From: a virus
IMG/VR virus record: IMGVR_UViG_3300010354_000051
Span: 1 to 64,000 of that record
Direction: 5' to 3' (one strand)
DNA length: 64,000 nt
The notes beneath the pieces were generated by a model that was not told the origin of the DNA, searched no databases, and saw nothing but the letters and a program-made list of their open reading frames with translations. Shown here piece by piece: positions 24,969 to 43,415 of the stretch. Each line of letters begins with the position of its first letter. The stretch's first letter is position 1. The translations under genes were made by a program, and so were the position numbers.

Positions 24969-25253
24969 TTAGCAAGATTTTTCCGAGTGGAGAAAGGCCT
25001 GAGCTTCAATCCGGATCGAGTAAAGTTGCGTGCTTATGGGATTTAGAGGGCAGAGTGGCGGAATGTACAAAATTAGGAGATTTCCCACCCACAGCTCTTT
25101 TTCGAACGGGCATTTTGCCGGGATGAAGTTTATCCAAGCCTGGGCTAGTTCGGGTGTCCAGCGAGTCGGCTTTAGCCAAGGTACACTGAACTGAGGCAAT
25201 TTCGCAATAAAATTTAACCAGCGAGCGGGCGGGCGAGCTTTTTTGCGCGTCAT
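24969..25253 (-). CDS. Possible small hypothetical protein
   Basis: 94 codons in the 351-base gap between the collar fibre gene and the putative SSB gene, starting 5 bases after the fibre stop. The first part (MTRKKARPPARWLNFIAKL, then PELAQAWINFIPAKCPF) reads like a basic, Trp-rich protein; the second part is less convincing. No family is recognised and no ribosome site is clear. No other frame covers this gap and no hairpin is obvious. It may instead be a leader of the downstream gene. Confidence 0.35.
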   Translation of the reverse strand: MTRKKARPPARWLNFIAKLPQFSVPWLKPTRWTPELAQAWINFIPAKCPFEKELWVGNLLILYIPPLCPLNPISTQLYSIRIEAQAFLHSEKSC

Positions 25254-25258
25254 GCCTG

Positions 25259-28200
25259 TTATGAAATTCTCATTATATAGGCCAGGGCGTAGTATGGCGG
25301 GCGATTTTCCACCGGATCGGTGTTTAGTTGATTACCGGCAGAGTCAATCGGGGTGCCGCTAGTACCCACGTTAGGCTCTCCAGTAGCTCTTTCCAACACA
25401 TAATCACGTCTGGTTTGCTCATCTCCTGAACCGCCAGTTCCGTTGGCAGAAATGTGTTGGGTAGGAGCTTGACCCAACTCCGCTTTAGCAGTTTCATTAC
25501 CCTGATAACCATTCGTAGAGGCCAGGAAGTGTCTGTGGTCGGGGAGTTGATTCGGAGACAAGGTGACCGAATCGGCACCACCCAGATCGCCCAAGTCGTA
25601 CAGATTACCAGCACCGACGATAAATCTGTCAAGAAGGTTAGGGGTATTGTTGCTTCCGTTACAAAGAGCCCAACCATTAGGTACATTTACCCCAGACCAC
25701 ATGATAATACCGCCAATTGGTATCGCTGCATTTACATAGTTAGCTATGGCTTTTTCTGTGGGCAGTTTAGAATCAGACGGGGATTGAGAATTTATCGAAG
25801 TGACAATGGCCTCTGCAGCTTGGCCATTCAAACTCCCCAACTTGAGCGAGGAGAAAGCTACCGGATCGTTGTTGAGTGGTAAGCCGGTACTAATCTCAAA
25901 CTGGGTTACGTTGTCGGTAGGGTCATTAGGATCGCCACCTGGCAACTCAACAGAAGTAGTAGTTACTGCTATACCGTTACCGCCAGAAATACTGCTGTCA
26001 AACCTCACATCGAGTTCTTCAGCCAGATCGAGGGCAGTTACCACGGCCTTATCAGCTACGCCAGAGGCCGAGCCATTCTTCGCCCCTCTGATGATTGACT
26101 TATCGGCTAGCTGAACCAAACCTGCTCGAGTTTTGGTAGAGTAAGACGCTGGGGGATTGTTGCTAGCAACAATATCGCCAGTGGTTAAAGACTTGAACTG
26201 GGTGTCATTGCTGAAGAAGATAGTGGTGTCGTTGCCGAACACAACCCTGGAACCGTCATCGAGCAACAGTGTGTTCCGAATAATAACATTGTTCAGAACT
26301 TGGTTGGTTAGACCTTCTTGCTCGCCTTGGGCGCTAAGAGGTATCGAGTACTGTTCGCCAGATCTCAGGTCGAATACAGTCGTACCGAGGTAGAAATTAC
26401 CCTCTTCGTTCATGCCCGTGGCATAAATACGGCCACCGCTTTCCTCAACCAAGATCTTGCTAAGGGCAAAATCCCTCTCAAGAGGCTCGCCTTGGTACTG
26501 GGGGAGTGCGGTGTCGTAATTCAAATACCCGCTCCATTCCCAGGTATGGCCCGAGGCTCGGATTACGGACGGTCGACGTAGACCGACACGGATGCCAGTA
26601 GATTGTACGCTGCTGGAGGTTTTTAGTGAGATCGGGCTTACGGAAGGAGCTAAGGCCGCGCTTAGCCATACACCAGGGCGGCTTCTGAACTGCTCTAGAG
26701 CGACTTTGGTGATGCTGCTGGTTGGGTCTTCACTAGACTCGGGGTAGTCGTAGTCGGAAGCAGGAGCTAGCTGGCCATTGAACACAGTTCGAGCAGCCGA
26801 GCCTAGAGTTAAATAGGTTACATACGCACCATCTTTGTTGACATTGAAAACGTCTCGGTATGTCTGGACGGAAGTCAGGGTGAACGGGTCGGAGTTATTG
26901 GGGTTGAGTGGGTAACCAGCCACACCCTCCTGTTTCTCCAGAATATAGAATGGCTGGGGTTTTCTCAACCCTTTGGTCTTTGTAAAACCTTCCAGCACTA
27001 CCCGATAAACTTTTTCTTCAGCTTTACGCTTATCCGTCGCACGAACAATCTTAATCGAAGACTGATCGAACATCAGGTCTAGCGCGGCATAGACCGCATT
27101 GCTGCCTGTCGGGTTGGTTAGAAGTTTATAACGGAACGCATAATCAAACCGCTTCAGCAGATAACCATCATTGTCGGCATCGGTCGATTCTTCAATAATA
27201 CCACCAGTTGTTACAGGGATGTACCAGCTACCCGAGCCGGTAACCAGATTGCCCTGGTCGTCATACTGTTGGGGGGTTGGATCCCACACGAAGATCTTCG
27301 AGCTATCGTCCAGATTGGCAAAGCCGGTGGTAGTTGGGTCGGGAGCTTTTAGGTTGCCTGTGTACAGGATGCTATTGCCCAGTTCATCAAATCCGCCGAC
27401 AAAGATCCTCTTTCTGTTGACTTGGTTCGGGCCGCCAGAAAGCTCCCAAGTCGTGCTGTTGATCTTCCTGGTGTAGGTGAATTGGCCAAAAGCAGCATCT
27501 TGAGCCGAGGGCGGATTGGTTAGAGAGAACTGCGAAGTGATGTTCGAGTTACGGACGTAAATTCGCAGAGTTTCAGGAGCGGTATTGTTGACAGTTTTGT
27601 TGACAACGGTATAGGCCAGAGTCTTGCTATAGTCAAGTGCCAGACCGGTATTGATCTGAGAGTCTTCCAGGGTGGCAGCATGGCCATTGGACAAAGCGGT
27701 ATAGCTCAGGGGCAGGGGTGGAATAATCTCGGTGATTCTCGTGCCGTCATAGCCTGAGCTGGTAGTGCGCTCGTCTTGACTGAATGACTTTGACTTATAC
27801 CCAATACTGCGAAGAGAAATATCGCCGAAGTCCGAACAGGAGTTGGTGATGGAAAGGTCGGCACCATTCTCAGATACGAAGTGATCGCTGTTGCCGATAC
27901 AGAAGACAGAGACGATTTGAATAGTCGAATCGTTAGAACCTCTGATGCCGAAGTGACGATATTTGAACAGGTCGTTAGCGCAGGACTTGTAAACCTTACC
28001 TTCACCGGTGTCTTTGTCCGTTGGAGGGTCGAGGGAATACGTGCCGGGGTTAAAGCATTCCGGGTCGGTCTGCAGAGATACTTGGGTGAAGTTGGCAGTA
28101 ACCATTGACTTGAATCCGCCAACCCGAGACCCGTCTGCCCACAAACCGTTTAGACCGAAGATTGAGCGGACGGTACAGTTAAGGACGTAGGGGGAGGAGG

Positions 28201-30487
28201 ATCGCGTGCTGTTTACGTCGGGCAGCGGCCAGCGAGCAGCGCCGGGGTAAGTGATGGGGGAGTTTGGCCTACCGTCACCACCAGCAACTAGCAACCCGGT
28301 CAGGTTCTCTTCAATATCCTGGGCTCGGTTCGAGCCGGTAGGAGCTACTATGGTCGTTTCTGCAGGGATGGCTTCCAGGGCTTCCGAGCCCCAGTTATCC
28401 ACATCTTTGAGTAGGCTGGTTAGTTTGGCATAGTATGAGATTTCAGACTGGTCACCAGCTATTTCCGCTTGAGAAGCGAAATCTACGCTAGTCACAGTGT
28501 TGTGAGAGCGGAGGTATTGCGGGTTGTCAGTGAAGGTCAGCAGGGACAGATACGTGCCGCCAGTAACTTTAAAGATTGCGGTGCGTTCAGTCTGAGCTGC
28601 GTCCTGGCCCGGAGTTAGGGCAGGAACGTACATCGGCCTGATCCGTACTTTTCTTAAGTCGGTTCCGTCTACGGAGATTCCTCGGGGGATGATAATACCG
28701 CCGGTTACCGGGTTTACTGCAGACAATCTGTCGTAGTACAGGTCGTCTCCCGATGCAAAAGTGCCCTGGACATATTCCAGAGTCAAGACCCAGTTTGGGC
28801 TAGACAGGGAGATTTTTTCAAGACGGGTGATGTTGCCCACACCACCCGACTCGCTATACAGAACTCGACCTAGGTTGATCGGATGAGGAGGCTGGGTAGA
28901 AGTCGCGTTATTGCTATTAATTGTGATGTGGGTATATCTCGACCCTTGGCTGACTGACAGAATGCTAAACCCGGCGCTCAGCCTTTGGAAAAGACCAGTG
29001 CTGGTTGTCGGGCTTAGGGTGGAGGAGTTGCCCGGAGAGTTGTCGACATAATAGTCGCCAGGAGCCAACTCAATCATCACTTTGTCGTAACGATCGTTGT
29101 TAGAGCCGGCTCTGAACGACTCACGATCACCTTCAATCAGGGCTCGTTCCAGGGTACGGAAGGGACGCTTATCATCAAAACCGTTATTCTCAATCGAGTC
29201 GTCACCGATCGTGCAATCGACGTAGATTACATTTCTGGTGGTGATTGACGGGCTGGTGTTATAGTCCCGGTTGCAGCGAGCCGCCCCGCCTACATAAATC
29301 AGGCTACCGTCACCAGTTGCGTAAAGTGCTACTTTTTCATTGTAGTTTTTGTAGCATTTGCCTACGGTCGGATTGGTAGTAGACGGCTCGAAATCGTAAA
29401 CGCCGGGGGACGAGTCGGGGTATTGGAAGGGCAGGGCGGCACCGTCCGGGCATTCCAGAGCTGTCTTATCACCGATGAATTCACGGCCACCGCAAGACAA
29501 GAACGTGCCCAGGACCGGATTGCAGTCGGAACCGGGGGCTTCCTCAAACTTCCATTGACCGCTAGCGGCATGGTAAAAGATCTGAATGTGCGCGTCTCTG
29601 ATGTTGACGATCCAATCGTCGGCAGACCCGTTTAGGTTTTCTTCGCTTACCGGGTTGATTCGGAGAATCAGCGGATAGCTGTTGAAGCTACCGCTAATGT
29701 CAACAATAGCAAATCGGTCTGAATCGGATGGGGATTCAGGTAGAGTGACAACAATGCTACCGCTGCTCGTATCGGCAATTACCCTATCCCATACTTTAGC
29801 CGTATAGCTCGAGCTTTTGACGCTGGTATTGACTAGGTTTTTCGGATAGGTATTTAAATTACCGATAAATACGTTGGGCCTCAGGTCGACATAACCAGCT
29901 CCGACTACGTCATTAGTGAGCGAGTCGGTTGCCAGACCGTCAGCAGTCGTATTCAGGGTGAGTTTGGCTAGGGGAATATGGGCAGTGGTTACACTCGGCA
30001 AAGAGTTGCCAATAGATAGAGCGACAGGCTCGGACGCAGAGATATTATCCAGAGCGCTGGCCTCATCCAAATAGATGTAGGACGTTGCGCCTGAGACCGG
30101 ATTCAGGATCTGGATGGTTTGTCTAGCCCAGGAGATCGGAGTACCGGCTCGGCTAATAACAGAGCCGGCTTCAACTGTAACCCCGATTCCGCTATTTACT
30201 GGCCGGACTGCCGGTGTGCCAGGAACCTGCACCGAGCTAGTTAGGCTGTCCCAACCTAAAACAATACCGTCATGGGCTAAGCGGCCAATACCAGTTTCTC
30301 TTTCTTCCCTAGGGTCGGAGATTTCCCAGTCCTTAATCTTATCTCTTTCGGCTATATCCCAACCGGCCTGATCAGGCTCGGAGTAAAAATCGGAACGGGC
30401 GGGTGCGGTAAACTTGTCGCCTTTCTGGACTTCGTTTAAATACGCACTACTAACGCTCTTACCGTTCTGAAAATCAATCTTATTCAT
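25259..30487 (-). CDS. Giant tail fibre with C-terminal collar domain
   Basis: 1742 residues. The N-terminal region (about residues 65-130, VQVPGTPAVRPVNSG, and so on) likely attaches to the virion. A long beta-rich body follows, with Gly/Ser/Thr/Asn-rich strands as in beta-helical fibres. The last ~155 residues contain the phage tail collar (PF07484) signature: GGIIMWSGVNVPNGWALCNG, then NLLDRFIVGAG, LPDHRHF and RPPYYALAYIMRI. Collar domains are found in short and long tail fibres and host-binding tips. It is the longest gene here. A GTTGAAAGC element lies 22 bases before the ATG and forms a 9-bp hairpin with bases just ahead of it. Receptor binding is inferred. Confidence 0.85.
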   Translation of the reverse strand: MNKIDFQNGKSVSSAYLNEVQKGDKFTAPARSDFYSEPDQAGWDIAERDKIKDWEISDPREERETGIGRLAHDGIVLGWDSLTSSVQVPGTPAVRPVNSGIGVTVEAGSVISRAGTPISWARQTIQILNPVSGATSYIYLDEASALDNISASEPVALSIGNSLPSVTTAHIPLAKLTLNTTADGLATDSLTNDVVGAGYVDLRPNVFIGNLNTYPKNLVNTSVKSSSYTAKVWDRVIADTSSGSIVVTLPESPSDSDRFAIVDISGSFNSYPLILRINPVSEENLNGSADDWIVNIRDAHIQIFYHAASGQWKFEEAPGSDCNPVLGTFLSCGGREFIGDKTALECPDGAALPFQYPDSSPGVYDFEPSTTNPTVGKCYKNYNEKVALYATGDGSLIYVGGAARCNRDYNTSPSITTRNVIYVDCTIGDDSIENNGFDDKRPFRTLERALIEGDRESFRAGSNNDRYDKVMIELAPGDYYVDNSPGNSSTLSPTTSTGLFQRLSAGFSILSVSQGSRYTHITINSNNATSTQPPHPINLGRVLYSESGGVGNITRLEKISLSSPNWVLTLEYVQGTFASGDDLYYDRLSAVNPVTGGIIIPRGISVDGTDLRKVRIRPMYVPALTPGQDAAQTERTAIFKVTGGTYLSLLTFTDNPQYLRSHNTVTSVDFASQAEIAGDQSEISYYAKLTSLLKDVDNWGSEALEAIPAETTIVAPTGSNRAQDIEENLTGLLVAGGDGRPNSPITYPGAARWPLPDVNSTRSSSPYVLNCTVRSIFGLNGLWADGSRVGGFKSMVTANFTQVSLQTDPECFNPGTYSLDPPTDKDTGEGKVYKSCANDLFKYRHFGIRGSNDSTIQIVSVFCIGNSDHFVSENGADLSITNSCSDFGDISLRSIGYKSKSFSQDERTTSSGYDGTRITEIIPPLPLSYTALSNGHAATLEDSQINTGLALDYSKTLAYTVVNKTVNNTAPETLRIYVRNSNITSQFSLTNPPSAQDAAFGQFTYTRKINSTTWELSGGPNQVNRKRIFVGGFDELGNSILYTGNLKAPDPTTTGFANLDDSSKIFVWDPTPQQYDDQGNLVTGSGSWYIPVTTGGIIEESTDADNDGYLLKRFDYAFRYKLLTNPTGSNAVYAALDLMFDQSSIKIVRATDKRKAEEKVYRVVLEGFTKTKGLRKPQPFYILEKQEGVAGYPLNPNNSDPFTLTSVQTYRDVFNVNKDGAYVTYLTLGSAARTVFNGQLAPASDYDYPESSEDPTSSITKVALEQFRSRPGVWLSAALAPSVSPISLKTSSSVQSTGIRVGLRRPSVIRASGHTWEWSGYLNYDTALPQYQGEPLERDFALSKILVEESGGRIYATGMNEEGNFYLGTTVFDLRSGEQYSIPLSAQGEQEGLTNQVLNNVIIRNTLLLDDGSRVVFGNDTTIFFSNDTQFKSLTTGDIVASNNPPASYSTKTRAGLVQLADKSIIRGAKNGSASGVADKAVVTALDLAEELDVRFDSSISGGNGIAVTTTSVELPGGDPNDPTDNVTQFEISTGLPLNNDPVAFSSLKLGSLNGQAAEAIVTSINSQSPSDSKLPTEKAIANYVNAAIPIGGIIMWSGVNVPNGWALCNGSNNTPNLLDRFIVGAGNLYDLGDLGGADSVTLSPNQLPDHRHFLASTNGYQGNETAKAELGQAPTQHISANGTGGSGDEQTRRDYVLERATGEPNVGTSGTPIDSAGNQLNTDPVENRPPYYALAYIMRIS

Positions 30488-30509
30488 GGAAAGCAGACTA
30501 TGCTATTCT

Positions 30510-30518
30510 GCTTTCAAC
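30510..30518 (-). promoter_or_regulatory. Recurrent element GTTGAAAGC in a hairpin
   Basis: Exact copy, 22 bases before the fibre ATG and one base after the upstream stop. Its GAAAGCAGA pairs perfectly with TCTGCTTTC ending one base before the ATG (9-bp stem, 9-base loop). Confidence 0.6.
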
Positions 30519-31028
30519 TCATTCCGCCCAAATGACCCGACCCAACCACTTCGGCATCGGACCATAAGAAGTCATTTCAACCAGTACAGAAGAGCCGAGA
30601 GAGGCATAGAGATCAATCGGATTGTCCACATTGGGGGTGTTGTCCGGGTTCCACAGGGACGGATTCCCCCAGTCCACTTCATAGTCGAAATATGAAGCGA
30701 ATGAGGTCAAGGGTTGCTGGACAAATCTCATTAGAATTCGGAAAGTCCTCACCGTGCGGTCTGGGGTGCTGAGAGGATTCGGTACGGGAATCGGCAGGTT
30801 TTCCGGATTGGTTACGTCCAGGTCGAGGTGATTGGAGGCGTACAGATTGCTGCCTAGTGGAATGCGAACACATGCCCCGCCTAATTCTACCGGTTCTGTC
30901 GACTCATCAAAAACCCAAACTCTGCCGTCAGCCTGATTGGTTGCAATCTCTCCGCTATCCCCATCGCCAATGAACGGCTCCTCATTGGGTAGGTTGGTTG
31001 TCAGAGACTGAATCGTAGCTTCGGGCAT
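30519..31028 (-). CDS. Small tail-associated protein, first gene of the minus block
   Basis: 169 residues from ATG 31028. A longer frame to 31130 would add an implausible hydrophobic leader running through the AT-rich intergenic region, and the recurrent GTTGAAAGC element sits 24 bases before 31028, so the shorter form is chosen. The opening (GDGDSGEIATNQADGRVWVF) follows the 'G.iAvNt.dGrlyv.d' pattern common at the attachment end of phage fibre and tail proteins. The rest is beta-rich (VRTFRILMRFVQQPL, SVLVEMTSYGPMP). It probably attaches to or chaperones the fibre encoded 31 bases downstream; this is inference. Confidence 0.65.
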   Translation of the reverse strand: MPEATIQSLTTNLPNEEPFIGDGDSGEIATNQADGRVWVFDESTEPVELGGACVRIPLGSNLYASNHLDLDVTNPENLPIPVPNPLSTPDRTVRTFRILMRFVQQPLTSFASYFDYEVDWGNPSLWNPDNTPNVDNPIDLYASLGSSVLVEMTSYGPMPKWLGRVIWAE

Positions 31029-31345
31029 GATGGCGAATTGACCTTCTGGAGGGCTTTCAACGCATAATTCCGCGCACGCCCCTACCCCTTGCTGTATTTT
31101 TAAAATAAAAAATAAAAGGAATATAGGCATTTAGGCTCTTAGGGGTAAATGACATGGAATTGGTCGCTTTCGGCCGAAAAATCGCCCAAAACCCTAGTAA
31201 AACCGTAGCGGTTTTTTGGGTCTGGTCTGTCTCACCCTGAAACCGCCGATACCCTAGCTGCTTTTTGACCCCCCTAAGTGCTTTTTAGGGGGGGCCTAAG
31301 TGTATTTTGAAAAAGCAGCTAGGCCCCCGGTAAAAGCATGGTAGG
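31029..31345. promoter_or_regulatory. Divergent intergenic region with palindromes and inverted repeats
   Basis: 317 bases separate the two divergent gene blocks, the longest non-coding stretch in the window. From left to right it holds the minus-strand element (31053), an AT-rich tract (31096-31126), the palindrome TTTCGGCCGAAA (31168-31179), a 7-bp hairpin AAAACCG-TAG-CGGTTTT followed by T (31199-31217), and then a nested set of perfect inverted repeats reaching into the next gene. Candidate roles are replication origin, bidirectional control region or insulator. No sigma-70 promoter is convincing. Confidence 0.7.
31053..31061 (-). promoter_or_regulatory. Recurrent element GTTGAAAGC
   Basis: Exact copy 24 bases before the ATG at 31028, heading the whole minus-strand block at the divergent region. 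Confidence 0.55.
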
Positions 31346-31372
31346 ATGGTAGAAAATACACTTAGGCCCCCC
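31253..31372. repeat. Nested perfect inverted repeats (14, 9 and 20 bp)
   Basis: Three perfect inverted repeats overlap. CCTAGCTGCTTTTT (31253-31266) pairs with 31310-31323. CCCCCCTAA (31269-31277) pairs with TTAGGGGGG (31285-31293). The 20-bp arm at 31289-31308 pairs with AAAATACACTTAGGCCCCCC (31353-31372). The middle hairpin lies inside the loop of the first pair, while the 20-bp pair conflicts with both, so alternative structures are possible. The last arm covers codons 3-9 of the plus-strand gene starting at 31346. Confidence 0.85.
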
Positions 31373-32494
31373 TTGAATCTGTCCCTCAGCCCTCTTGAAG
31401 ATCAGATAAATTATGCCGAAGAGGCCAGATCTCTGGATTTAGATAGTCTGGACCGGTACGAACTACTGAAAGTTGCCAATAGCTTCCGGGTTGTTATTAT
31501 ACTTTATTCGGAAAGGTTATCTAATTTGGCCACTAGACTGAGCGAAAAGGATAGCGAAATAGAAAGATTAAAAGAGGAGAATAAAAATCTGAGAGACAGA
31601 ATAAGCAAACTTGAAATACCCGACTTCATACCTAAAGAGCAGAAGATACAGGAGTGGCTAAAGGGCAGAGAGATAGAGTACGAGAGGGAGAGGATTAATA
31701 TGGAGAACAGTAAAATATTGGCTAGCGGAGATGTAGCAGTTAGACTGGGTGAAGTGCTAAAAGATAACAAATACGCTCCGCATGCTATTAATAGCGTGTT
31801 GAAAAAAACTCTCGTCGCTGCGGGCGAAGAGGTTAAGTCGGCAGTCAATACTGTACTTGAAGATCGTATTTCATCGGCTTACCAGCTTGGGTTTACATGG
31901 CAAACCCGCTCTTCTAAAAGGCCTTCTAGAGAGGCTACTTGTGTCAAGTTGTTGAGCAAGTGGGAGGCTGAGTATCAGATCGGCAAAGAGTACAACATTA
32001 ATTTCTTACCCGATCCGTCTGCTATCGCAGAAAGCGGGGATGGGGCAGTCTGTGCAGTGATAAATATGATTGTTGAGGCTCTGGGGGGCGAATTGGACCT
32101 GGGCATAGGGAAAAATAACTTCAACCGGCTGCAAAAAGCAATCCGAATTTACAAATCTTCACCGGTTAAGGTTCTTTCTCCTGCTCAGCCAGTGGGGGAT
32201 ACTCCCGTCGAGCTGTGCAACAAAGTATTCGGTCCGGGTCTCCCCGAGGAGGAGAAGGTGAAAGTCATCGCGACATTTGCAGAGAGACTGAGCAGGTATA
32301 AGTCGGCTAGTGAAATACCACCCGAGCTGATTAGAAAATCCTGCACTTTGTCCCGTCTGCCCGTCTTTTTCACTTGGGACCAGGCCCACAAGGACGCTCA
32401 CTCCCGCCTAAAAGCCCTGAAAAACGGCCATTACGACCATGAGTACAAGCGGTTGCTGGAAACCCTGGTCGTTGAAAGTAAAACAGAGGGGTAA
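31346..32494 (+). CDS. Coiled-coil protein at the divergent region
   Basis: 382 residues, not recognised. Residues ~60-130 form a strong coiled coil (LATRLSEKDSEIERLKEEN, then NLRDRISKLE). The remainder is mixed helical with basic patches (RSSKRPSREATCVKLLSKW) and a C-terminal HKDAHSRLKAL. It is the first gene of the plus-strand block and its codons 3-9 form one arm of the 20-bp inverted repeat. A DNA-binding or replication-initiation role is tempting from position, but no known DNA-binding fold is visible; a virion role is equally possible as structural genes follow. No clear ribosome site; the start is the only ATG before residue ~118. Confidence 0.6.
   Translation: MVENTLRPPLNLSLSPLEDQINYAEEARSLDLDSLDRYELLKVANSFRVVIILYSERLSNLATRLSEKDSEIERLKEENKNLRDRISKLEIPDFIPKEQKIQEWLKGREIEYERERINMENSKILASGDVAVRLGEVLKDNKYAPHAINSVLKKTLVAAGEEVKSAVNTVLEDRISSAYQLGFTWQTRSSKRPSREATCVKLLSKWEAEYQIGKEYNINFLPDPSAIAESGDGAVCAVINMIVEALGGELDLGIGKNNFNRLQKAIRIYKSSPVKVLSPAQPVGDTPVELCNKVFGPGLPEEEKVKVIATFAERLSRYKSASEIPPELIRKSCTLSRLPVFFTWDQAHKDAHSRLKALKNGHYDHEYKRLLETLVVESKTEG
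32471..32479 (+). promoter_or_regulatory. Variant of recurrent element (GTTGAAAGT)
   Basis: Eight of nine bases match. It lies in the last codons of the coiled-coil gene, 21 bases before the GTG start of the next gene. This is one of three candidate plus-strand copies. Confidence 0.45.
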
Positions 32495-32500
32495 TTTTGA

Positions 32501-33505
32501 GTGAGTAGCACGTATCTTACTGACTCCTGGTCTAGTATTTCTGGCCTGGCCGCTGTTGCTTACGGCTCGCCCAGCCTGTACCCAGAAGTGGCTAATCAGG
32601 TCCGGTCTCAGTCGCCTACAAGTTTTGTCGACATGTTGCCGCCTTCTGAAGTCTTAAGACATGCGCTCCCCGCTGAAGTTTTCCAAGACTCGGTACAGGA
32701 TGAGTACGACAAAGGTGGAGATTTTGCAGACTATGTAGATTCGGGTAAGAGAACAGTCGGGCAGGAGGCTGACAGCATATACGACAATCTGCTGTCTTTT
32801 TCCGACCAAGTCACTTCATACAACAAGAGATTCTCTGACCTGCTCGGTTATGTGACTTCTGGCAAGGGGCTGGATGTGGTAAGCGTAACCAGAAACCTGG
32901 AAAGCAAATTGCCAGACCTGTCTCTGTTCACATCAATAGCTACTAGCATCGCTTCTAGAAAGCTGGATAAACTTCCTGCTGACACTCAGGTCAGCATTTC
33001 AGACACTGCTCCGTTAGGCAAAGATGTGAGAGGGGTGGACATAGCTGCTGGCTATTTGACACCCGGACAGTATTTTTCTGACGTAGCTTATCCCGGTGTC
33101 GGCACGACCTTTGACAATCTGCCCGCATCTATCATGACTTCACTAGAGCAGGGCTATGCCGGATATGGTTCGCTAGAACCTCTAGCCGGCCCACTATCGC
33201 TGGTATCTGTAGAAGATGTTGCCGGCTTGTCTAGCATACCACGGTCGTTGTTCGGAATAGGCACATTGAATACGATTAGAGATTTGACCGGGCTCGGTCT
33301 AATGTCCGAAGCTGACCAGGCCATGTATTCAGTAGACCTGTCCGAACTAATTCTGGCCAGAAACGGCTATACAACTTATAACCCTCTGACCGACAGTAAT
33401 GGGGATTTCCTCGATCCGGCTCTTGTAACCGATCCTGCCCTTAAAAATATCGACCCTGGTCAAGGTCTTCCTTCTTCTCAAAGATCTAAATCTACCGCAT
33501 TCTAA
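32501..33505 (+). CDS. Hypothetical virion/baseplate-region protein
   Basis: 334 residues from a GTG start 6 bases after the preceding stop, with GAGGGG as ribosome site. Unrecognised. Rich in Ser, Ala, Leu and Asp, without cysteine or membrane segments. Short helices (FSDQVTSYNKRFSDLLGYV) alternate with loops. It precedes baseplate J by 5 bases and ends with a polar tail (LPSSQRSKSTAF), so a baseplate component is likely by position. Confidence 0.6.
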   Translation: MSSTYLTDSWSSISGLAAVAYGSPSLYPEVANQVRSQSPTSFVDMLPPSEVLRHALPAEVFQDSVQDEYDKGGDFADYVDSGKRTVGQEADSIYDNLLSFSDQVTSYNKRFSDLLGYVTSGKGLDVVSVTRNLESKLPDLSLFTSIATSIASRKLDKLPADTQVSISDTAPLGKDVRGVDIAAGYLTPGQYFSDVAYPGVGTTFDNLPASIMTSLEQGYAGYGSLEPLAGPLSLVSVEDVAGLSSIPRSLFGIGTLNTIRDLTGLGLMSEADQAMYSVDLSELILARNGYTTYNPLTDSNGDFLDPALVTDPALKNIDPGQGLPSSQRSKSTAF

Positions 33506-33510
33506 TCTCC

Positions 33511-34797
33511 ATGGCTACTGAAATTTTTGGGCCTATATTGCCGCTACTTCTAGACAGTAGAAATGTTGACGATGTGGTTAGAGGTATACAGTCTCGGATG
33601 TTTATTGAGTCGGGCGGGGCTCTGACAGATTTTACCCCGGCTTCACCCCTTGCAGCAATTAGCGAAGGTCAGGGTTATGCTCAGGCCGAACTGCTATACT
33701 ACCTAAATAGCTTGCCAGAAGCTGTAACTTTGCAATGGCTGAGGACTCTAGGCATTCAAAGAAAACTAGGAGCTAGGGCAGAAGTTGAGATTACTTTGTA
33801 CAAAGTTCCTGGCTATCAAAGAGCAGTTAATATACCGGCCGGGTCTAAGGTTTACGCGAACGGAGGACAAGTTTACATAACTTTGACCCAAGTCTCAATC
33901 ACTTCCGACTCAGCAACTGTCCTGGCGCAGTCTGAGAGATGGGGGACGATTTACAATGTTGGCCAGGGTCAGATTAACCGAATCGATAAAAATTACCTCG
34001 GCCTCGACTACATAACCAATCTTCAGCCAGCTACCGGAGGGGAAGACCTAGAGTCTGCTGAAGATATGAAGTTCAGAGCATTTGAACTCTTCGGGCGCAG
34101 AAATCTTACCTCAAAAGCAGATTTTGAAGCAGAAATCGCCCAGGTAGCTCCCGAGGCAGAGATTGTAAAAGTTCTATCGTATGAAGAGCGGTTTGGTCAG
34201 GATAGTCGAGGAATTTTTATAGTTGCTGGCGGGTCTAACGGTTCGCCCTTATCCACATCGACTCAAACCTCACTAATAACCTCAATTCGGGACAAAGTCC
34301 CGCTTGATTGCAGAATTTACCTGGCCCAACCTACAATCCTGCCAGTAGAAGTAGTGGTTAACATAACCTGGGACCCACTCACTACTTCAGTATTTACTGA
34401 TACTATGGCATCTGAAATTAATCAGTTGCTGCTAGACCTGATCGACCCGGCAATACTCGGCCTGGGGAATAGTCTATCCCATACCGAAATATATAGAAGA
34501 GTGCTAGCTCTGGGCTATGTAGTGGAAGTTCCTGTGTTGGATATTAAGGAGAGGATTGTCGACTTGGACACTTCCGGTACGGATACGTCCTGTGGAAGAT
34601 TTGTTGGTGAGGATGTAGGGGACGATACTTGTCTCTATACCTACAACGCTATGGTAACCAACTCAGACCCTGGGAGTCTGACTACTTCCGATCCGACTTC
34701 CGCTTTTAAACTCTACAAATCCGTAGTCTCTCTAACCTCTACAATTGACTACAGCACCTTAACTTACACTTACGACAATCTATATGAACTTGTCTAA
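33511..34797 (+). CDS. Baseplate J-like protein (gp6/J family)
   Basis: 428 residues. The Baseplate_J (PF04865) pattern is visible: N-terminal FTPASPLAAISEGQG, a beta domain (VNIPAGSKVYANGGQVY, SERWGTIYNVGQGQI), GGEDLESAEDMKFRAFE, LTSKADFEAEIAQVAPE, and the C-terminal half with VEVVVNITWDP and the helix HTEIYRRVLAL. J/gp6 proteins form the inner ring of the contractile-tail baseplate. It overlaps the next gene by 14 bases. Five residues near the end (CGRFV and so on) and a long C-terminal extension (~65 residues with two cysteines) differ from the core family. Confidence 0.85.
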   Translation: MATEIFGPILPLLLDSRNVDDVVRGIQSRMFIESGGALTDFTPASPLAAISEGQGYAQAELLYYLNSLPEAVTLQWLRTLGIQRKLGARAEVEITLYKVPGYQRAVNIPAGSKVYANGGQVYITLTQVSITSDSATVLAQSERWGTIYNVGQGQINRIDKNYLGLDYITNLQPATGGEDLESAEDMKFRAFELFGRRNLTSKADFEAEIAQVAPEAEIVKVLSYEERFGQDSRGIFIVAGGSNGSPLSTSTQTSLITSIRDKVPLDCRIYLAQPTILPVEVVVNITWDPLTTSVFTDTMASEINQLLLDLIDPAILGLGNSLSHTEIYRRVLALGYVVEVPVLDIKERIVDLDTSGTDTSCGRFVGEDVGDDTCLYTYNAMVTNSDPGSLTTSDPTSAFKLYKSVVSLTSTIDYSTLTYTYDNLYELV

Positions 34798-36673
34798 TTC
34801 AGTCTGGGACCGGACACGGTCTACAACCCACCGATCGACAGCATTTTCTCTAGTTCCTCCTCGTGTAACTTTTGAATTTGAGAACAGGGGTAGAAGAAGT
34901 AGTCCGGCCTTTCGGTCAGGCAGAGTAACCTTTGTAAGCGGTCAGCAGCTAAATAAGTCAAGAGACGAGGTAATTAACCAGAACTACGACTCGAACTCCT
35001 TTCACTCAATCTCCAATACATATACCCCGGCTACGTTACTTCCAGAGACCGGAGATGTGTACTTTCACGGAGTTAGAACAGAGTCCGGGTTAGAAAACTG
35101 CGCATTGATGAACTCGACCTGTATCGGCACAGGTTCGGATTCTCAATGTGAGAGAGGGAAATGTAAAATAGGTACTGTTACTGCTACGACTAAAAAGAAT
35201 AAGTGGAGATTCGATTCGGCCACGGTTCCTGGACTGTACTACTATGTATTTGGGACGGATTCAATTACTCTGAAGTCGGTGGTTCGGGGCAGTTTTGTTC
35301 TGCCGGCCGGCCAATCGGCCATAGCAGTAACAAACATAGCTAGCATCCCTACAACTATCTACCTCCCGCCTAACTCTTATTCTGAGGAGACATTTGTAAG
35401 GCGGGTTATTACTGTTGTTTCAGGGTCTGAGCTGAGGGGGATTAAGGACAGTGCTAATGATTTTGTCAGAGAGTTACTGCAGAACAATTTGGCCAGTGTA
35501 GCAGTTGAAGACGAGGTAAGAAATAGAGTAGAAAATGCAATAGTGTCTTCTTTAGATAAAATTTGGGCGGATTTTGTTCTATCCACAATCGCAACTATCT
35601 GGTCGGAATCCGGTCTGACTAACCGGGACTTTTTGTTAAGGGTTTACGAGGAAATGTCCGTCCTGTACCGCAGCTATTTGCAGGTCGGAATGAGTTCTGT
35701 GCGATTCGGTCGATTGAACACCGATCCTGACCAGGCTAGACCAGTCTACAATCGCCTGCCCGGCATATCAGGAGCGTATAATTCTGAGGACAATCCGGAC
35801 AACCCCTCCAAATGGCTTGTTTCAGGAGTTGACTCCTACCTCTCATTCTATAAAAACCATCTTCTGGACCGGTTTTATAGTTTATACCTGGATTATCAAA
35901 CTTGCTATCCGGGTTGTTTAGATTGGATAGGGCAGCACCTTGGGTACAGTTCGGAATTTTGGAAGCTGAGTTGGGATTCGTCCATTAAAAGAGCATTGAT
36001 AGCTAATGCCCATGTCAACAGAATTCAGGGGCAGATGTGGCAGACTTCGGACACGTTAAAGAAAATAGATTTGTCAGTCATAGAGACAATAAATGCCAAT
36101 TCGTTTACCGGAGTTGTAACCACTCAAGCTAGACATTTTAAGAGGCAGTATTATAGCTCTTACCAGGCAACCTATCTCACTCAAGAGTTGAACCTGACTG
36201 TCAGTTTAGCAAACTGGAATGGTATTTTGCCCGGAAAAGGTTCATTGACTACTTTAATGGTCTTGTTCTCGATATTTAATATCAAGGCGGTTTCCGGAGA
36301 AGAGCTTAAGTACAACTCTGACGGGACATACTCTGTCAAAAGCGGGCTTAGGCAGTATGAAGTCTCCGCCCCGATAAACACCCCGTACATGGTTGATAAT
36401 CTGCGTGTCGGGACTGAAACAGATTCAGAGGTGGGGAACTTCCCTAATCAGCTTGTGGCTGATCTTAGCAGATTTTATGACGATACCGCAGCTAATACGG
36501 TAGTCATTCGCATGCCTTTCTACTATAATAGAAATGGCAGAACTTGGAATTCTGTCCAGTCTATCGTTGATAACTTCGTGCCGACTAGTTCTGTTAGCCG
36601 AGTTCAATACGCTTACTCTGCGGCCGATTTGATGGTCGCCGGAGACTACTTCTTCGAGCCTATTATCGACTAA
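34784..36673 (+). CDS. Tail protein I-like baseplate protein
   Basis: 629 residues. The central segment YLDYQTCYPGCLDWIGQHLG, then FWKLSWDSSIKRALIANAHVN (about residues 365-408) matches the P2 gpI family pattern 'L.WLA..LG...W...W....KR.LI.....H', with the RI-Q-G-Q-M-W turn following as in 'h..KGT'. gpI caps or staples baseplate wedges next to J. It follows the J gene directly. The N-terminal ~200 residues and C-terminal ~200 residues are additions, including a six-cysteine stretch near residues 105-130 (ENCALMNSTCIGTG, CERGKC). The I-like call is moderate. Confidence 0.58.
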   Translation: MNLSNSVWDRTRSTTHRSTAFSLVPPRVTFEFENRGRRSSPAFRSGRVTFVSGQQLNKSRDEVINQNYDSNSFHSISNTYTPATLLPETGDVYFHGVRTESGLENCALMNSTCIGTGSDSQCERGKCKIGTVTATTKKNKWRFDSATVPGLYYYVFGTDSITLKSVVRGSFVLPAGQSAIAVTNIASIPTTIYLPPNSYSEETFVRRVITVVSGSELRGIKDSANDFVRELLQNNLASVAVEDEVRNRVENAIVSSLDKIWADFVLSTIATIWSESGLTNRDFLLRVYEEMSVLYRSYLQVGMSSVRFGRLNTDPDQARPVYNRLPGISGAYNSEDNPDNPSKWLVSGVDSYLSFYKNHLLDRFYSLYLDYQTCYPGCLDWIGQHLGYSSEFWKLSWDSSIKRALIANAHVNRIQGQMWQTSDTLKKIDLSVIETINANSFTGVVTTQARHFKRQYYSSYQATYLTQELNLTVSLANWNGILPGKGSLTTLMVLFSIFNIKAVSGEELKYNSDGTYSVKSGLRQYEVSAPINTPYMVDNLRVGTETDSEVGNFPNQLVADLSRFYDDTAANTVVIRMPFYYNRNGRTWNSVQSIVDNFVPTSSVSRVQYAYSAADLMVAGDYFFEPIID

Positions 36674-39612
36674 TGTCCTCTTTTTTCAGCCAGTTAAATG
36701 CTATCAGCGAGTCTGTAGATCGTACTTTAGAAGTACTCGGTGTGCCTTTTGCCGACCCGTTTAACGAAGAGGGGGTAATTTGTGACGTATCCGATCCTAA
36801 GTACTTGGGCAGAGTTAAAGTAACTACGAAGGACGGACTTATCTCGCCCTGGGTTCCCGTGGCAGGCTCAAGTAGGGGGAGACTAAGTGCTAAGTATATT
36901 GGCACGAGAGTAATGGTATCTAAAATAGGTGGCAGATCTGAGAGGTTGTATATTACGGGTATATTGAGTGGGGATAAAGATATTGGTGTGATAGGTACTC
37001 CTGTTCAGCTACCAATAATCGATGAGAGTGTAGCAGTTTGGTCCGGATCTAGTGATACCGGGATGAAGTGTAATGAGGGTAATGAGGCCAGGGTCTACGT
37101 TCTCAGTAATGAGATGGGACAGGATGCAGTTATTTGTCTCCGCAGGAATAATTTGCAAGACGGCGGGGGTTCTGTCTGGGCGTGGAAATCTCTGACTAAC
37201 GGCTTATGGGTAGAAAAAGGGTTTAATCCTGGCAACGCTGATACCATGTCTGTTACCCAAGCTCAGGAGAATAATCCTGGCATACCGAAATGCGATCAGT
37301 CCATGCTAGGGGAAAGGCATGACTTTACAGAGGATAGGGGGTTCCGAACCATATCCATGCAATGCAGGAGAGATGAGAACGGCGATTATTCGTGGATACC
37401 TGACGGTTCTAGCCCGGTGTTTTTCCGAACCACTCTACCATCTTGTACGGAGAAAATACATGGCATGTCTGCTACTGTAGACGACGGAAATAATTCTGAA
37501 TATATGATATGCCAGAGATACCAAGGTAAAATGAAATGGGTGCGTCAGGGGAGAAGAATACCACATAAATTTTACTCGAAAGAAAAACCACTAAACCGGA
37601 TTGAGTTTCTGAGCAAGTTTAATCCGATCCCCGAATTACAGACTGAAGTAAGTGTTTCAGGGTATGATTGGGTAGCCGATCCGGCTGTTAGCCAGGCCGT
37701 CTTTGACGAACTTTATAAAAATGTGCCGATTACTGGTACGGATCCTGAGTTAAAAATTCTACTGAAAGCGGCTAACTTAATACCCGATTCTGCTTTTGAC
37801 GAGGCCAGCGCCTTAAAACGAATTGCTAATGCGGCTATTGAGGCTAAGACAGGATTGCCCGTACAGGAAATATTTGATACGGTCAGGGCCGAACTCGACC
37901 AGTCAAACAGTTTGACTCCGGCCACTTCAAAACTTCTGACAGGTGTTGGTAAAGCAGCAGATGTTTTGATTAACGGCGAAGGCGAAGATGCCCTGATTGA
38001 GGTAGGCAGAGAAGCCCTGGTCGGGTCTATATCCTCTCTGAGCCCTCAAGCCGGATCGGTAATGACAGGTTTAATGACCGGAGGTGTTTGGGGGGCGGTA
38101 GATAGCGCGGTTGCAATCGGACTGGATAAATTGCCAGACGAGGTGAACAGATATGTCGCCCCGGTAGTAGATATTGCCAAAGACCTGCTGAAAGGCCAAT
38201 CGATAGGATTTTCTAACATAGTTAGTGCGGCGGTTAATGGTGGCTTGTCAAACAAAGTCTCATCGTTAGTTAACTCGGCTATAGGGGCGAATGTGGTTTC
38301 TCCTTCTACAGTTACTTCTGTACTGGAAGGTCTGGGCTCGGGGTCTTACGGAGATGTGTCAAAACTGTTCTCTGGACTTAGCAACTTGTCCGCTATAGAT
38401 AAACTTCCTGCTCCGGCCAATTCTCTGGCCAAATCAGCTACTTCTGCCCTAGGCCTAATAGGTCAAGCCGGCTCCGGAGTTAATTTCTTTGGCAATGCTG
38501 GACTAGGCTTGGATTCTGTTCAGAGCTTGCTCGGTAGTAATTCTAATCCTGCTGCGATCATAGCTTCGGGAGTGTCCGGATTGTCCGGGTTGCTTAGAGG
38601 TGGGCTGGGCGGAGACGATTGCCCTTGTGGTGAGAAATGTAGAAAGACTTCCCATGGTAAGAGTAAAGACGGGACAGATTTACTAGGTCCGTGCGGGTCG
38701 ATGAGTTCTAATACGGCTAACAGCACTACACCTAAAGGTATCCCCACACCTAATAACACTGGCCCGATTGCCAAAGAACTCGGCCTAAAGGATACTAAAC
38801 TCGGAGAGAGCTTATTGCCAGCCAATAATCTTGACCTATCGGATATAATAAACAAAGTTCCGAGAGTTAAGGACATGGCAGAGACAATCTACCAGAGTCG
38901 TTTTGCCGATCAGACAGAGAGAGAACTCGAACTAGCATCTAGCTTTGAGGCTGTAGAAAAGTCACTAAAAATAGCCGATAATAACATAACCAGAGTCGAG
39001 TCAATTGAACGCAAGTTAATAGACTCGTTGTATAATTTGCTGACTTCAATTGTTTACAATAAGAAAGTCGGCTCGGTGTCTGTAATGACAGAGGTCTTGG
39101 ATGCAGTCCGCACCAATTCCCGAGCTATAAAAGACCTGTATGAGTTTACCAAGGCATTAAATGCTGTTAAGAGAGGAGGTGACGCTGGGGTCAGGGTCAC
39201 TGAAGCCCTAGACAGCGCATTTAACAATATCCCAGCTCTGCTTAACCTGTCAAAAATCAACAGAGAAAACGCTCTTAAGATACTTAATGGCGGGATTATT
39301 CCGGCCGATAGAGAGTGGAGGGGGTTGAATCCAGACTTGTCAAGGGGAATTAAGCTAGGCAGTTATTCCCCCACTCTCCCTACTCCGTTTGATAACGAGC
39401 AGACTTTATTCAATCAGACCAGGGTCCTGTCCGAGTCATTAGAGTCCAAGCTAACCGACAACGACCCTGAGCAACAAAGCATATTCGACTTGTCTCTTTC
39501 TTCAAATCAAGTTGAAAGTCTTAAAGAATCGAGTGATTTTCTATACGGGTCGGACAAATCTCTCTACGACGTAGTTTCTGACCGAAACAAGAAAACTAAT
39601 TGCAATGAATAA
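36673..39612 (+). CDS. gp5/gpV-like baseplate spike protein
   Basis: 979 residues. Residues ~30-95 (GVICDVSDPKYLGRVKVTTK, then ISPWVPVAGS and YIGTRVMVSKIGG) match the OB-fold domain at the N-terminus of gp5/gpV/VgrG spikes, with the 'V..V.DP...GRV.V' signature. A Trp-rich domain follows (~115-300, RNNLQDGGGSVWAWKSLTNG). The next ~350 residues are Ala/Gly/Ser/Val-rich helical repeats. Around residue 650 there is a cysteine cluster (CPCGEKC, GPCGS). The C-terminal ~280 residues are helical and charged. A conventional beta-helical needle is not obvious. Start overlaps the upstream stop (TAATG). Function as spike or hub is inferred from the OB domain and its position. Confidence 0.62.
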   Translation: MSSFFSQLNAISESVDRTLEVLGVPFADPFNEEGVICDVSDPKYLGRVKVTTKDGLISPWVPVAGSSRGRLSAKYIGTRVMVSKIGGRSERLYITGILSGDKDIGVIGTPVQLPIIDESVAVWSGSSDTGMKCNEGNEARVYVLSNEMGQDAVICLRRNNLQDGGGSVWAWKSLTNGLWVEKGFNPGNADTMSVTQAQENNPGIPKCDQSMLGERHDFTEDRGFRTISMQCRRDENGDYSWIPDGSSPVFFRTTLPSCTEKIHGMSATVDDGNNSEYMICQRYQGKMKWVRQGRRIPHKFYSKEKPLNRIEFLSKFNPIPELQTEVSVSGYDWVADPAVSQAVFDELYKNVPITGTDPELKILLKAANLIPDSAFDEASALKRIANAAIEAKTGLPVQEIFDTVRAELDQSNSLTPATSKLLTGVGKAADVLINGEGEDALIEVGREALVGSISSLSPQAGSVMTGLMTGGVWGAVDSAVAIGLDKLPDEVNRYVAPVVDIAKDLLKGQSIGFSNIVSAAVNGGLSNKVSSLVNSAIGANVVSPSTVTSVLEGLGSGSYGDVSKLFSGLSNLSAIDKLPAPANSLAKSATSALGLIGQAGSGVNFFGNAGLGLDSVQSLLGSNSNPAAIIASGVSGLSGLLRGGLGGDDCPCGEKCRKTSHGKSKDGTDLLGPCGSMSSNTANSTTPKGIPTPNNTGPIAKELGLKDTKLGESLLPANNLDLSDIINKVPRVKDMAETIYQSRFADQTERELELASSFEAVEKSLKIADNNITRVESIERKLIDSLYNLLTSIVYNKKVGSVSVMTEVLDAVRTNSRAIKDLYEFTKALNAVKRGGDAGVRVTEALDSAFNNIPALLNLSKINRENALKILNGGIIPADREWRGLNPDLSRGIKLGSYSPTLPTPFDNEQTLFNQTRVLSESLESKLTDNDPEQQSIFDLSLSSNQVESLKESSDFLYGSDKSLYDVVSDRNKKTNCNE

Positions 39613-41185
39613 ATCTGAGCTGGTTAAAGAAAAAGCGCTGGTAAAAGAGATGATGGCCAGGGCAGATAATTTGTCCTTTGAAGAAAAACGAGAGTTGCTG
39701 AGGTTAAGGTGTCGGACCGAATTCATCACCTATGCAAAGTACATAACACGGCAAGTGGGGACTAGCGGAATCTTTAACCCGTTTCCAGTTCACGAGCTGA
39801 TATGTAGTTATGTGCAGGAGATTTGCGACGGTAATAAAGACTTCAGAAGAACAACTATATCGCTCCCTCCCCGTACAGGCAAGAGTATGCTGATCTCTAA
39901 ACTTCTGCCCAGTTGGCAATTAGGTAGAAGCCCATCTTCACAGTTTATTCTGGCCTCCTACGCCCTAAAACTCACCCATGAGAACTCTAGGGCGATTATG
40001 GATTTTGTCACCAGCGAAGCGTTTAAGTGGATATTCCCTGAGTGTACGATCAACAAAAAAGATTGTAACCTGAAGACAATAAGATCGGGACAAGCCGGTA
40101 TCATTATGTCAGCATCTGCCGGAGCTGGTGTTACCGGTTTCGGCTTTGGGGTCATATCCGAGGAAGATTTGCCCGGTATTGGTATATTGGATGACTTGCT
40201 TGAAGATGGTAATTCCCCCCAAGTACTCGATTCGACTTTTATGTGGACAGCCACTCAGTTTTTAACTCGTGGCCTGCCAAATAACTGTGTAATGAGCATA
40301 GGTACTCGTTTCCATAAAGAAGATGTGATAGGTAGGTTGTTGGCTTCAGACCCGACCGGTTGGCGTGAATTAAACGTACCGGCTCTGTGCCTGGATGAGG
40401 ATAGCGATCCGCTCAGCAGAAGGTTGGGTGAATCACACTGGCCAGAATTTTTCCCTGTAACCGAACTCGAGTCTATTAAAAAACAGGACGAGAAGACATT
40501 CAATACTTTGTATCTGGGTCGTCCTCAGGGTGAAAGTGGTTCGATATTCAAAGATATGTGGTTTGAACAGCACGATAAAAACCTAGAAAAATACGAATAT
40601 GTTTTTGCTACGGGTGACACTGCATTGAAAAAAGAAGAAGTTAATGACCCGTCCGCTGTTTGTATATTCGGAGTGGTTAAAAAGACTAGAAAACTCCACC
40701 TTCTGCATGTTTATAAGGAGCGGATGGAGTTCCCAGAATTGTTAAAAGCTTTGCCGGTATGGCTAAAGACCTGGAAAGTTCGGGCGTTGTATTTAGAGAG
40801 TAGGGCAAGCGGTCTCCCCCTCATTCAAATGTTGAGGAGAGAGTTGCAGATTCCGATAAAAGAAGTCGTACCGACTAAAGACAAGGTTTTCCGGGCAAAC
40901 GAGGTTGCTCCTATAGCGGAGGACGGCCGAGTATCCATCTATGCCAATATCCCAGCTCTGGGCGAACTACTGGCAGAACTCTGCGCTTTCCCGTACACAA
41001 AGCACAATGACTTCGTTGATAGCTTCTGCATGGGATTAAAGGTCTACCGGGACGAGATTATGGGTAGTGCCAAGACTGCCCACGGCGGGAGCAGGATACC
41101 CTTACCCCAGCTCAATCATTCCGGGTCTGCCCAAAGAATCACAGCTAGGCATGTTAGGGGTAAAATCTCAACCCGCTACATTTAG
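39605..41185 (+). CDS. terL: Terminase large subunit
   Basis: 526 residues. ATPase: Walker A SLPPRTGKS (to residue 94), Walker B GIGILDDL (191-198) and the coupling motif in MSIGTRFHKED. Nuclease (RNase H fold): ATGDTA with D338, LESRASG with E398, and KHNDFVDSF with D469/D472. It packages DNA into proheads and cuts the concatemer. The sequence resembles the group of terminases with 'PPR.GKS' and 'ILDD' rather than T4 gp17 itself. It overlaps the spike gene by 8 bases. No small terminase subunit was recognised nearby. Confidence 0.92.
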   Translation: MNKSELVKEKALVKEMMARADNLSFEEKRELLRLRCRTEFITYAKYITRQVGTSGIFNPFPVHELICSYVQEICDGNKDFRRTTISLPPRTGKSMLISKLLPSWQLGRSPSSQFILASYALKLTHENSRAIMDFVTSEAFKWIFPECTINKKDCNLKTIRSGQAGIIMSASAGAGVTGFGFGVISEEDLPGIGILDDLLEDGNSPQVLDSTFMWTATQFLTRGLPNNCVMSIGTRFHKEDVIGRLLASDPTGWRELNVPALCLDEDSDPLSRRLGESHWPEFFPVTELESIKKQDEKTFNTLYLGRPQGESGSIFKDMWFEQHDKNLEKYEYVFATGDTALKKEEVNDPSAVCIFGVVKKTRKLHLLHVYKERMEFPELLKALPVWLKTWKVRALYLESRASGLPLIQMLRRELQIPIKEVVPTKDKVFRANEVAPIAEDGRVSIYANIPALGELLAELCAFPYTKHNDFVDSFCMGLKVYRDEIMGSAKTAHGGSRIPLPQLNHSGSAQRITARHVRGKISTRYI

Positions 41186-41226
41186 CCCTTTTCTTGCTAT
41201 ATTTATATTGCTTACTTAAGGCAATT

Positions 41227-41550
41227 ATGTCCTCAGAGGAAAATCAATTTAAGTACCGGGCGGTAATTTTTACCACGCCGGGTTGCTCGGCCTGTGCAGC
41301 TATGAAACCAATCTGGGCGCAGGTTGCAGGGGAAATGGCCGAAGAATACCCTCAGCACAGGGTTGGTTGGGGGGAATACAACGTTCTGGAGGATGACTGG
41401 GAGTTCCTGGAGTCGTTAACTCCTGAGTCCGGTCAAGGCACTCCTGAAATTGCCATTTTTGATGAAGATGGCCAGCTTGTCGGCTTCAATGGGGACGGGA
41501 TTATGCCTGCCTCTCAATTAAAAGACTTCATTCTAACATCAATAGGTTGA
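41227..41550 (+). CDS. Thioredoxin-like protein
   Basis: 107 residues from ATG 41227. It has a thioredoxin fold: strand AVIFTTPGCSACAAMKPIW with active-site CSAC, and the cis-Pro region GTPEIAIF followed by GQLVGFNG. CSAC differs from the classical CGPC, so it may act as a redox protein with altered potential or as a subunit of another enzyme. It lies between terminase and the sigma-like gene and, with the glutaredoxin in NrdA, gives this phage two dithiol domains. It could reduce NrdA, which is inference. Confidence 0.78.
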   Translation: MSSEENQFKYRAVIFTTPGCSACAAMKPIWAQVAGEMAEEYPQHRVGWGEYNVLEDDWEFLESLTPESGQGTPEIAIFDEDGQLVGFNGDGIMPASQLKDFILTSIG

Positions 41551-41552
41551 GC

Positions 41553-42912: not shown

Positions 42913-43414
42913 AGGATAGCAGATCTTCTAATAGGCGGTTTGCTTCTAAGGCCAGGTAGTCCTCTATGCTTTTTTGTGGCGCGGAGATTCGGCTGAGCCA
43001 CGGGCGGTTTTCATCTACTTTCGGACTGGTATATAGGCTGTAGACAGGTTTGGCCTCAAGGCCGACTAAAGTACTCTCTTTTCCCGCCCCATACTTGTTT
43101 TTCAAGTATTGTAGGATTGGGGAATTTTCTCCGCCTTTTTCTAGTTGAGACTCCAGGCCTTTCAAAGACCGTTGAAGTTTCAGGAATAACTTGTCGCCTT
43201 CATTATTCGAGTCGACTTCAGCCGTCATCGACCCTATTGAGTTAACGTAATTAGACAGGTTATGGCTTATTTCTTTTGTAAACCCGTCTGTTACCGTTCT
43301 TAGGAACTCAACACGTACAGCCTCCTGAGCCTGCCCTATAACGGCAGACTTTATAATCTGTTTTAATGACTGCTCGACTACGTCAATGACCAGGGTTGAT
43401 AAGAGCGGGTTCAT
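42896..43414 (-). CDS. Hypothetical helical protein after the hub gene
   Basis: 172 residues, not recognised. Helical throughout, hydrophobic at the N-terminus without a true membrane segment (MNPLLSTLVIDVVEQSLKQI), then charged (KLFLKLQRSLKGLESQLEKG). The start is one base from the stop of the hub/lysin gene, so it is probably translated with it and may be a chaperone or partner. It converges on the plus-strand gene with a 17-base overlap and no terminator. Confidence 0.6.
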   Translation of the reverse strand: MNPLLSTLVIDVVEQSLKQIIKSAVIGQAQEAVRVEFLRTVTDGFTKEISHNLSNYVNSIGSMTAEVDSNNEGDKLFLKLQRSLKGLESQLEKGGENSPILQYLKNKYGAGKESTLVGLEAKPVYSLYTSPKVDENRPWLSRISAPQKSIEDYLALEANRLLEDLLSSNQNT

Positions 43415-43415
43415 G

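Follow-up and report, generated by a model that had tools for sequence, protein, structure and literature searches.

The point near 31 kb in this phage genome where the direction of the genes changes carries a dense cluster of perfect inverted repeats, and the locus raises the question of what these repeats are and what they might serve. The stretch analyzed, referred to here as the window, corresponds to the first 64,000 bases of a virus record 118,719 bases long. By gene content the phage is a myophage, with genes for a tape-measure-like protein (starting at 7328), ribonucleotide reductase (18456 and 22286), a baseplate J protein (starting at 33511), the terminase large subunit (starting at 39605), and a sigma-70 region 2 protein (41547-42233). 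An HNH endonuclease-like segment lies within the ribonucleotide reductase large-subunit ORF (18456-21428). At the DNA level, positions 25000-45000 match no known phage. The genes from tail fibre through g203, g334, baseplate J, and terminase to sigma factor follow an order similar to that of cyanophage S-TIM5, which was compared by annotation and position.

At the switch, g203 (30519-31027, minus strand), which is kept in relatives, diverges from p382 (31346-32494, plus strand), and p382 is followed by g334 (32501-33505, plus strand). The start of g203 is probably 31027 (M PEATIQ...) and not 31130, given that tblastn matches in relatives begin at about residue 24-37. Because the ORF start at 31130 is probably spurious, the noncoding gap (31028-31345) is really about 318 bp rather than the 215 bp obtained with ORFs of at least 60 aa. 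An earlier note on this sequence described the gap as the longest noncoding stretch, which holds for the window; the contig as a whole has a longer one, of 684 bp, at 114203-114886.

The repeats described in that note are all perfect and lie where it placed them. They comprise a 12-bp palindrome, TTTCGGCCGAAA (31168-31179), a 7-bp hairpin, AAAACCG/CGGTTTT, read from the sequence at about 31199-31215, and inverted repeats of 14 bp (31253-31266/31310-31323), 9 bp (31269-31277/31285-31293), and 20 bp (31289-31308/31353-31372). The 20-bp repeat does enter the coiled-coil gene, as its right arm covers codons 3-9 counted from the ATG at 31346. These repeats are real and far beyond chance. At gaps of up to 70 bp, no other perfect inverted repeat of the contig is as long as the 20-bp pair, and the longest perfect arm in 40 shuffled 118.7-kb contigs was 14. 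When the 205-bp site itself was shuffled 2000 times, arms of 14 never appeared, and at least three arms of at least 9 appeared in 0.15% of the shuffles.

The picture of separate nested repeats needs revision, however, since most of them derive from a single element. Five copies of one 16-20-bp element, AAAATACASTTAGGCC(CC), at 31251-31368 account for the recurring words as well as for the 14- and 20-bp repeats, and the inverted arms arise because copies of this element face both ways. Three copies lie on the minus strand: AAAAAGCAGCTAGGGT (31251-31266), AAAAAGCACTTAGGGG (31271-31286), 20 bp from the first, and AAAATACACTTAGGCC (31293-31308), 22 bp from the second, which supplies the left arm of the 20-bp repeat. 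Two lie on the plus strand, namely AAAAAGCAGCTAGGCC (31310-31325), with the right arm of the 14-bp repeat, and a second AAAATACACTTAGGCC (31353-31368), 43 bp further on, with the right arm of the 20-bp repeat; this last copy falls within codons 3-8 of p382. The 12-bp palindrome and the 7-bp hairpin do not belong to the element and are unremarkable. An AT-rich, easily melted block at 31092-31141 is the seventh least stable 50-bp stretch of the contig.

The element has one other cluster in the contig, with 11 copies, 9 of them on the plus strand, at 114436-114883 (about 450 bp) inside the 684-bp gap. Copies with up to 3 mismatches to the 19-mer are restricted to these two sites (11 observed; 0.2 expected), and inverted element pairs are present at both. 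The best repeated 16-mer occurs 5 times at the window site and 11 times at the second site against shuffle maxima of 3 and 3, and none of 9 control stretches of the same genome exceeded its shuffle maximum in this array test. Each site therefore exceeds the three clustered, near-identical copies of about 17-22 bp that characterize an iteron-type array, and the suggestion that the recurring words resemble iterons was borne out. Same-strand spacings are typically 20-22, 32, or 41-43 bp, also in arrays of unrelated element sequence, and the copies are phased by whole helical turns; at a 10.5-bp period R is 0.62 and the mean phase is 0.05 bp, values that include tandem duplicates and so are inflated and partly non-independent. 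AT-richness beside the repeats is strong at 31092-31141 and weak at the resident second site (114254). A palindromic word, TTGCGCTGCAAGGG / TTGCAGCGCAAGG, is interspersed with the elements in L007 (10346-10740; contig 114346-114740) and in L010 (670-1040).

Both clusters lie directly upstream of paralogous genes, p382 (382 aa) at the window site and p369 (369 aa; contig 113093-114202, outside the window) at the second. The two proteins share 26% identity (blastp E about 1e-24). In the protein tree, p382 and the L032 protein stand apart from p369, with the placement of p382 relative to L032 weakly supported. A recent tandem duplication of p369 as the source of p382 was ruled out, as the tree sets these locus-A proteins apart from p369. 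Thus p382 and p369 diverged long ago, yet one element is present in both arrays, which suggests a common reader.

Further family members come from S-TIM5-like contigs, from a second contig group (group B), and from relatives of the window phage. One homolog from an isolate is gp003 of S-TIM5, annotated only as hypothetical, to which p382 is distantly related (25% identity, E 4e-9, with a family range of 4e-9 to 1e-12). A first scan of viral contigs with the 382-aa protein alone gave no matches, and the family was found neither in plasmids nor, with one profile only, in GTDB genomes. Searches of Pfam, PHROG, and NCBIfam assigned it to no family and found no DNA-binding, initiator, nuclease, or recombinase domain; one member weakly matches a PHROG transcriptional regulator (E 0.009). 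The AlphaFold model of p382 is all-helical with a long coiled coil (mean pLDDT 78, pTM 0.35), and at this pTM only its local structure is trustworthy. A fold search of the PDB with this model gave no match, and the one good Foldseek match in the viral library was again S-TIM5 gp003 (H6WG36, E 1.5e-11, for a model of pTM only 0.35). The protein is near neutral (pI 6.6). Its best conserved stretch, about residues 174-207 (R174, A178, G182, W185, P193, L203, W206, and E207), falls in its most basic part and is likely the putative DNA-contacting region. A short member of about 162 aa at the second locus of G006 (L057, 8512-9002, minus strand) keeps R..GFRWNNSN..P..WE and lacks the C-terminal part.

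The window array and p382 together form an inserted module of about 1.4 kb (31063-32469, plus or minus 2 bp, plus strand) that lies between the halves of a palindrome. The halves are CTTTCAACG (31054-31062) and CGTTGAAAG (32470-32478); L019, L021, L030, and L045 have them uninterrupted, as CTTTCAACGTTGAAAG, and the nearest relatives carry this sequence or a close form. In 21 related contigs without the insert, g203 and g334 are directly divergent across a short gap, as are gp099 and gp100 of S-TIM5. The left half holds the promoter-like GTTGAAAGC of g203 (31053-31061, minus strand), and the right half holds the promoter-like GTTGAAAG of g334 (32471-32478, plus strand), now within the last codons of p382. 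The contig contains the word GTTGAAAG at 28 places, most of them a few tens of bases before a start codon, and GTTGAAAG(C) is probably a phage-specific promoter; the module therefore sits between two back-to-back promoters. At 17618 (minus strand), 76696 (plus), and 67811 (plus), for example, GTTGAAAG(C) is followed by TA about 5 bases on, and the corresponding junction of group-B relatives carries GTTTAAA(G). Among about 23 genomes the insertion is common to only two, the window phage and L032 (G006), the array of the latter being cut by the contig end. A terminase and baseplate tree places both near the base of the clade with weak support (0.68-0.75), so that either one gain followed by loss or two gains is possible.

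In relatives, the family gene is in most cases accompanied by an array of its own. Each near-complete contig searched (G001 and G011), as well as S-TIM5, has a family member with its own upstream region, and most homologs in S-TIM5-like phages and contigs have upstream of them about 500-900 bp of noncoding DNA that contains repeated elements. These elements have a general form, an A-tract, 5-8 bases, and a G/C run, which is realized as AAAACTACACGAAGGCCCC in L010, AAAAATGTGAAGGGGGG in group B, AAAATGGGAnAGGGG in S-TIM5, and an AT-rich variant, AAAACACAAAACATTT, in G001. The repeat search in relatives thus gave a divided answer, in that the architecture is conserved upstream of most homologs examined whereas the element sequence is lineage-specific. 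In the array test, L010 (11 against 5), the S-TIM5-like L016 (8 against 4), G006 (6 against 4), L017, L013, and most group-B regions exceeded their own shuffle maxima, as both window-phage sites did; G001 (8 against a maximum of 9), L015, L070, L079, and S-TIM54 did not. The exact element was found in 6 other viral contigs, and in 5 of these it was set aside as an isolated chance copy with no array or family gene. The two sites of G006 have the element in common in only one copy at each, so that sharing between them is suggestive only.

Based on these observations, our leading reading, held tentatively and at somewhat less than an even chance, is that the locus is one of two copies of an iteron-type array of putative binding sites for the p382/p369 family, serving autoregulation and probably the initiation of replication. 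Binding by the family is suggested by the position of the arrays. The proteins, dimeric through their coiled coil, would bind the elements, and bound copies overlapping the start region of p382 would repress this gene and so provide autoregulation. Origins may be formed by the longer direct arrays, with the resident site beside p369 as the clearest case; at such origins, bound protein would melt the adjoining AT-rich DNA and load the replisome. The window site would then be a second, acquired copy of the module inside the late virion-gene block, its array having stayed matched to the resident one because both would be read by the same proteins.

A replication origin had been one of the functions put forward in the earlier note, and the anatomy fits. 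The proposed skew analysis of the full genome lent it no help: the GC-skew minimum (23,992) and maximum (107,034) each lie 7 kb from the two sites, in a skew that is confounded with gene direction. GC skew in G000, S-TIM5, G001, and G011 was uninformative, in part owing to a net excess of G in the records of S-TIM5 and G011. DnaA boxes were found at neither site, although not all phage origins need them, and the neighbouring gene resembles no DNA-binding initiator type known from Pfam, PHROG, NCBIfam, or the PDB. The note had held that skew extremes elsewhere together with unconserved repeats would speak against its reading; the extremes do map elsewhere, and the architecture of the repeats is conserved, though their exact sequence is not.

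Origins and initiators of large marine myophages are poorly known, and the family with its lineage-varying arrays offers a testable candidate for an initiator-origin pair or a self-regulating master switch, the window module being an example of a second insertion within one genome. We found no description of the array or the family among the open-access papers surveyed. A module of protein and iterons is known in kind, and we regard the present one as a new variant in which the protein is unrelated to known initiators. We are rather doubtful of the broader claim that this is a new initiator family with lineage-specific iteron origins whose module can enter a promoter palindrome as a second copy; if it were true, one phage would carry two origins with matching iterons.

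Several known systems resemble this arrangement in part. Iteron plasmids of the Rep/iteron type, such as R6K and P1, have direct repeats spaced by about 20-22 bp, an AT-rich block, and inverted pairs near the start of the Rep protein itself. The spacing and the inverted pairs recur in the window phage, as does an AT-rich block that is strong at the window site and weak at the resident one; unlike in these plasmids, neither a Rep winged-helix domain nor DnaA boxes were found. S-TIM5 (NC_019516, genus Aurunvirus) has the homologous gp003 with a AAAATGGGAnAGGGG array in the upstream noncoding region, but only a single family copy and a different element sequence. In SPP1, gp38 binds to direct repeats at two origins, of which one lies within the gp38 gene and the other breaks up the late block (PMC6316719); an AT-rich block accompanies the repeats (PMC6316719, PMC3485210). 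In the window phage, too, there are two direct-repeat sites, one at the candidate initiator gene and the other in a segment interrupting the late virion-gene block, and an AT-rich block that is strong at the window site and weak at the resident one. It differs in that no relation of p382 and p369 to replication families was detected in Pfam, PHROG, or NCBIfam, a separate paralog accompanies each site, and the element is 16-20 bp with a G/C run. The iterons of T4 oriE are 12-nt direct repeats with no assigned role, and several T4 origins are located where transcription changes strand (PMC3016281). T4 is similarly a myovirus with clustered iterons near a switch in transcription direction, but repeat length and sequence differ, and the p382/p369 family has no library match to RepEA or RepEB.

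Nearly as likely as the origin reading, and a serious possibility in its own right, is that the arrays are multi-site autoregulatory operators only and that p382 and p369 are transcription regulators with no role in replication. This alone would explain most of the data: the arrays lie directly upstream of genes and at the window site reach into p382, inverted element pairs occur at both sites, and the PHROG match noted above is to a transcriptional regulator. Lambda CI and Cro provide a precedent of two regulators reading the same sites at two places. Against it, 11 copies over about 450 bp in the longest noncoding gap of the genome exceed the needs of simple autoregulation, as do the large noncoding regions upstream of most homologs, and the window array contains no recognisable promoter. 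The bidirectional operator of the earlier note is supported only on the side of p382, upstream of which the array lies; the promoter-like GTTGAAAGC of g203 (31053-31061) falls beyond the array, which is part of the inserted module that carries the 382-aa gene.

A structured RNA switch, also raised in that note, in which the 20-bp inverted repeat would fold in the transcript and hide the start codon of p382, is not favored and appears improbable. A 25-bp stem is indeed predicted over 31246-31380 (-49 kcal/mol, z -2.7), and one inverted pair at the second site folds too (z -3.4). The second-site copies, however, are mostly direct repeats, unable to pair mutually, with fold z values of -1.0 and -1.2 against shuffles. 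Furthermore, helical-turn spacing is a property of double-stranded DNA and favors an iteron-type array bound by protein over an RNA switch. Of the two arms in group-B homologs, one hardly changes and the other is variable, and change in both arms would be expected from copies of one DNA element as well as from RNA pairing. An Rfam scan of the window and relatives returned nothing at the array.

More improbable still is a selfish, homing-type cassette without a regulatory function in the phage, which the insertion at a conserved palindrome in so few genomes and GIY-YIG-like ORFs in the homologous noncoding region of some relatives would suit, but which is hard to reconcile with the family members and upstream regions of G001, G011, and S-TIM5 and with the lack of a nuclease or recombinase domain. 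We consider least probable a pac- or cos-like packaging site with a small-terminase-like reader whose coiled coil is an oligomerisation domain: metagenome contigs with the family gene frequently stop a few hundred bp before it, several exactly at GGCGCC, but L015, L016, and L076 read straight through this point, the two ends of the S-TIM5 record seem to be continuous with each other (compared with L013 and L016), the window-phage sites are away from the contig ends, and two pac sites would be odd.

The regions around the family gene in relatives have further features. Four contigs from different samples (L013, L017, L070, and L078) have position 1 exactly at GGCGCC; such ends were considered as a physical terminus, an idea dropped because other contigs read through. 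Upstream of the family gene in L077-L086, L016, and L017 there is a conserved hairpin, with the form GGGTAGCCACTTCGTGGCACCC in several group-B loci and an S-TIM5-like form GGGAACCCGTCCACTC..., which in S-TIM5 lies near a TTGACA-17-TATAAY promoter-like site. This hairpin had no Rfam match in the loci scanned and is possibly a small RNA. In L018 (about 1-390), L071 (1-350), and L080 (about 280-690), the noncoding DNA that precedes the family gene contains inserted GIY-YIG-like ORFs, recognized by eye. At the resident locus of several phages a gene convergent to the family gene is present (L007 7611-9107, L010 2605-4152, and S-TIM5 gp004), for which the only similarity is a weak one to leucine-rich variants. 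Finally, L016 carries a group I intron at 15653-15944 (Rfam RF00028, 91.8 bits).
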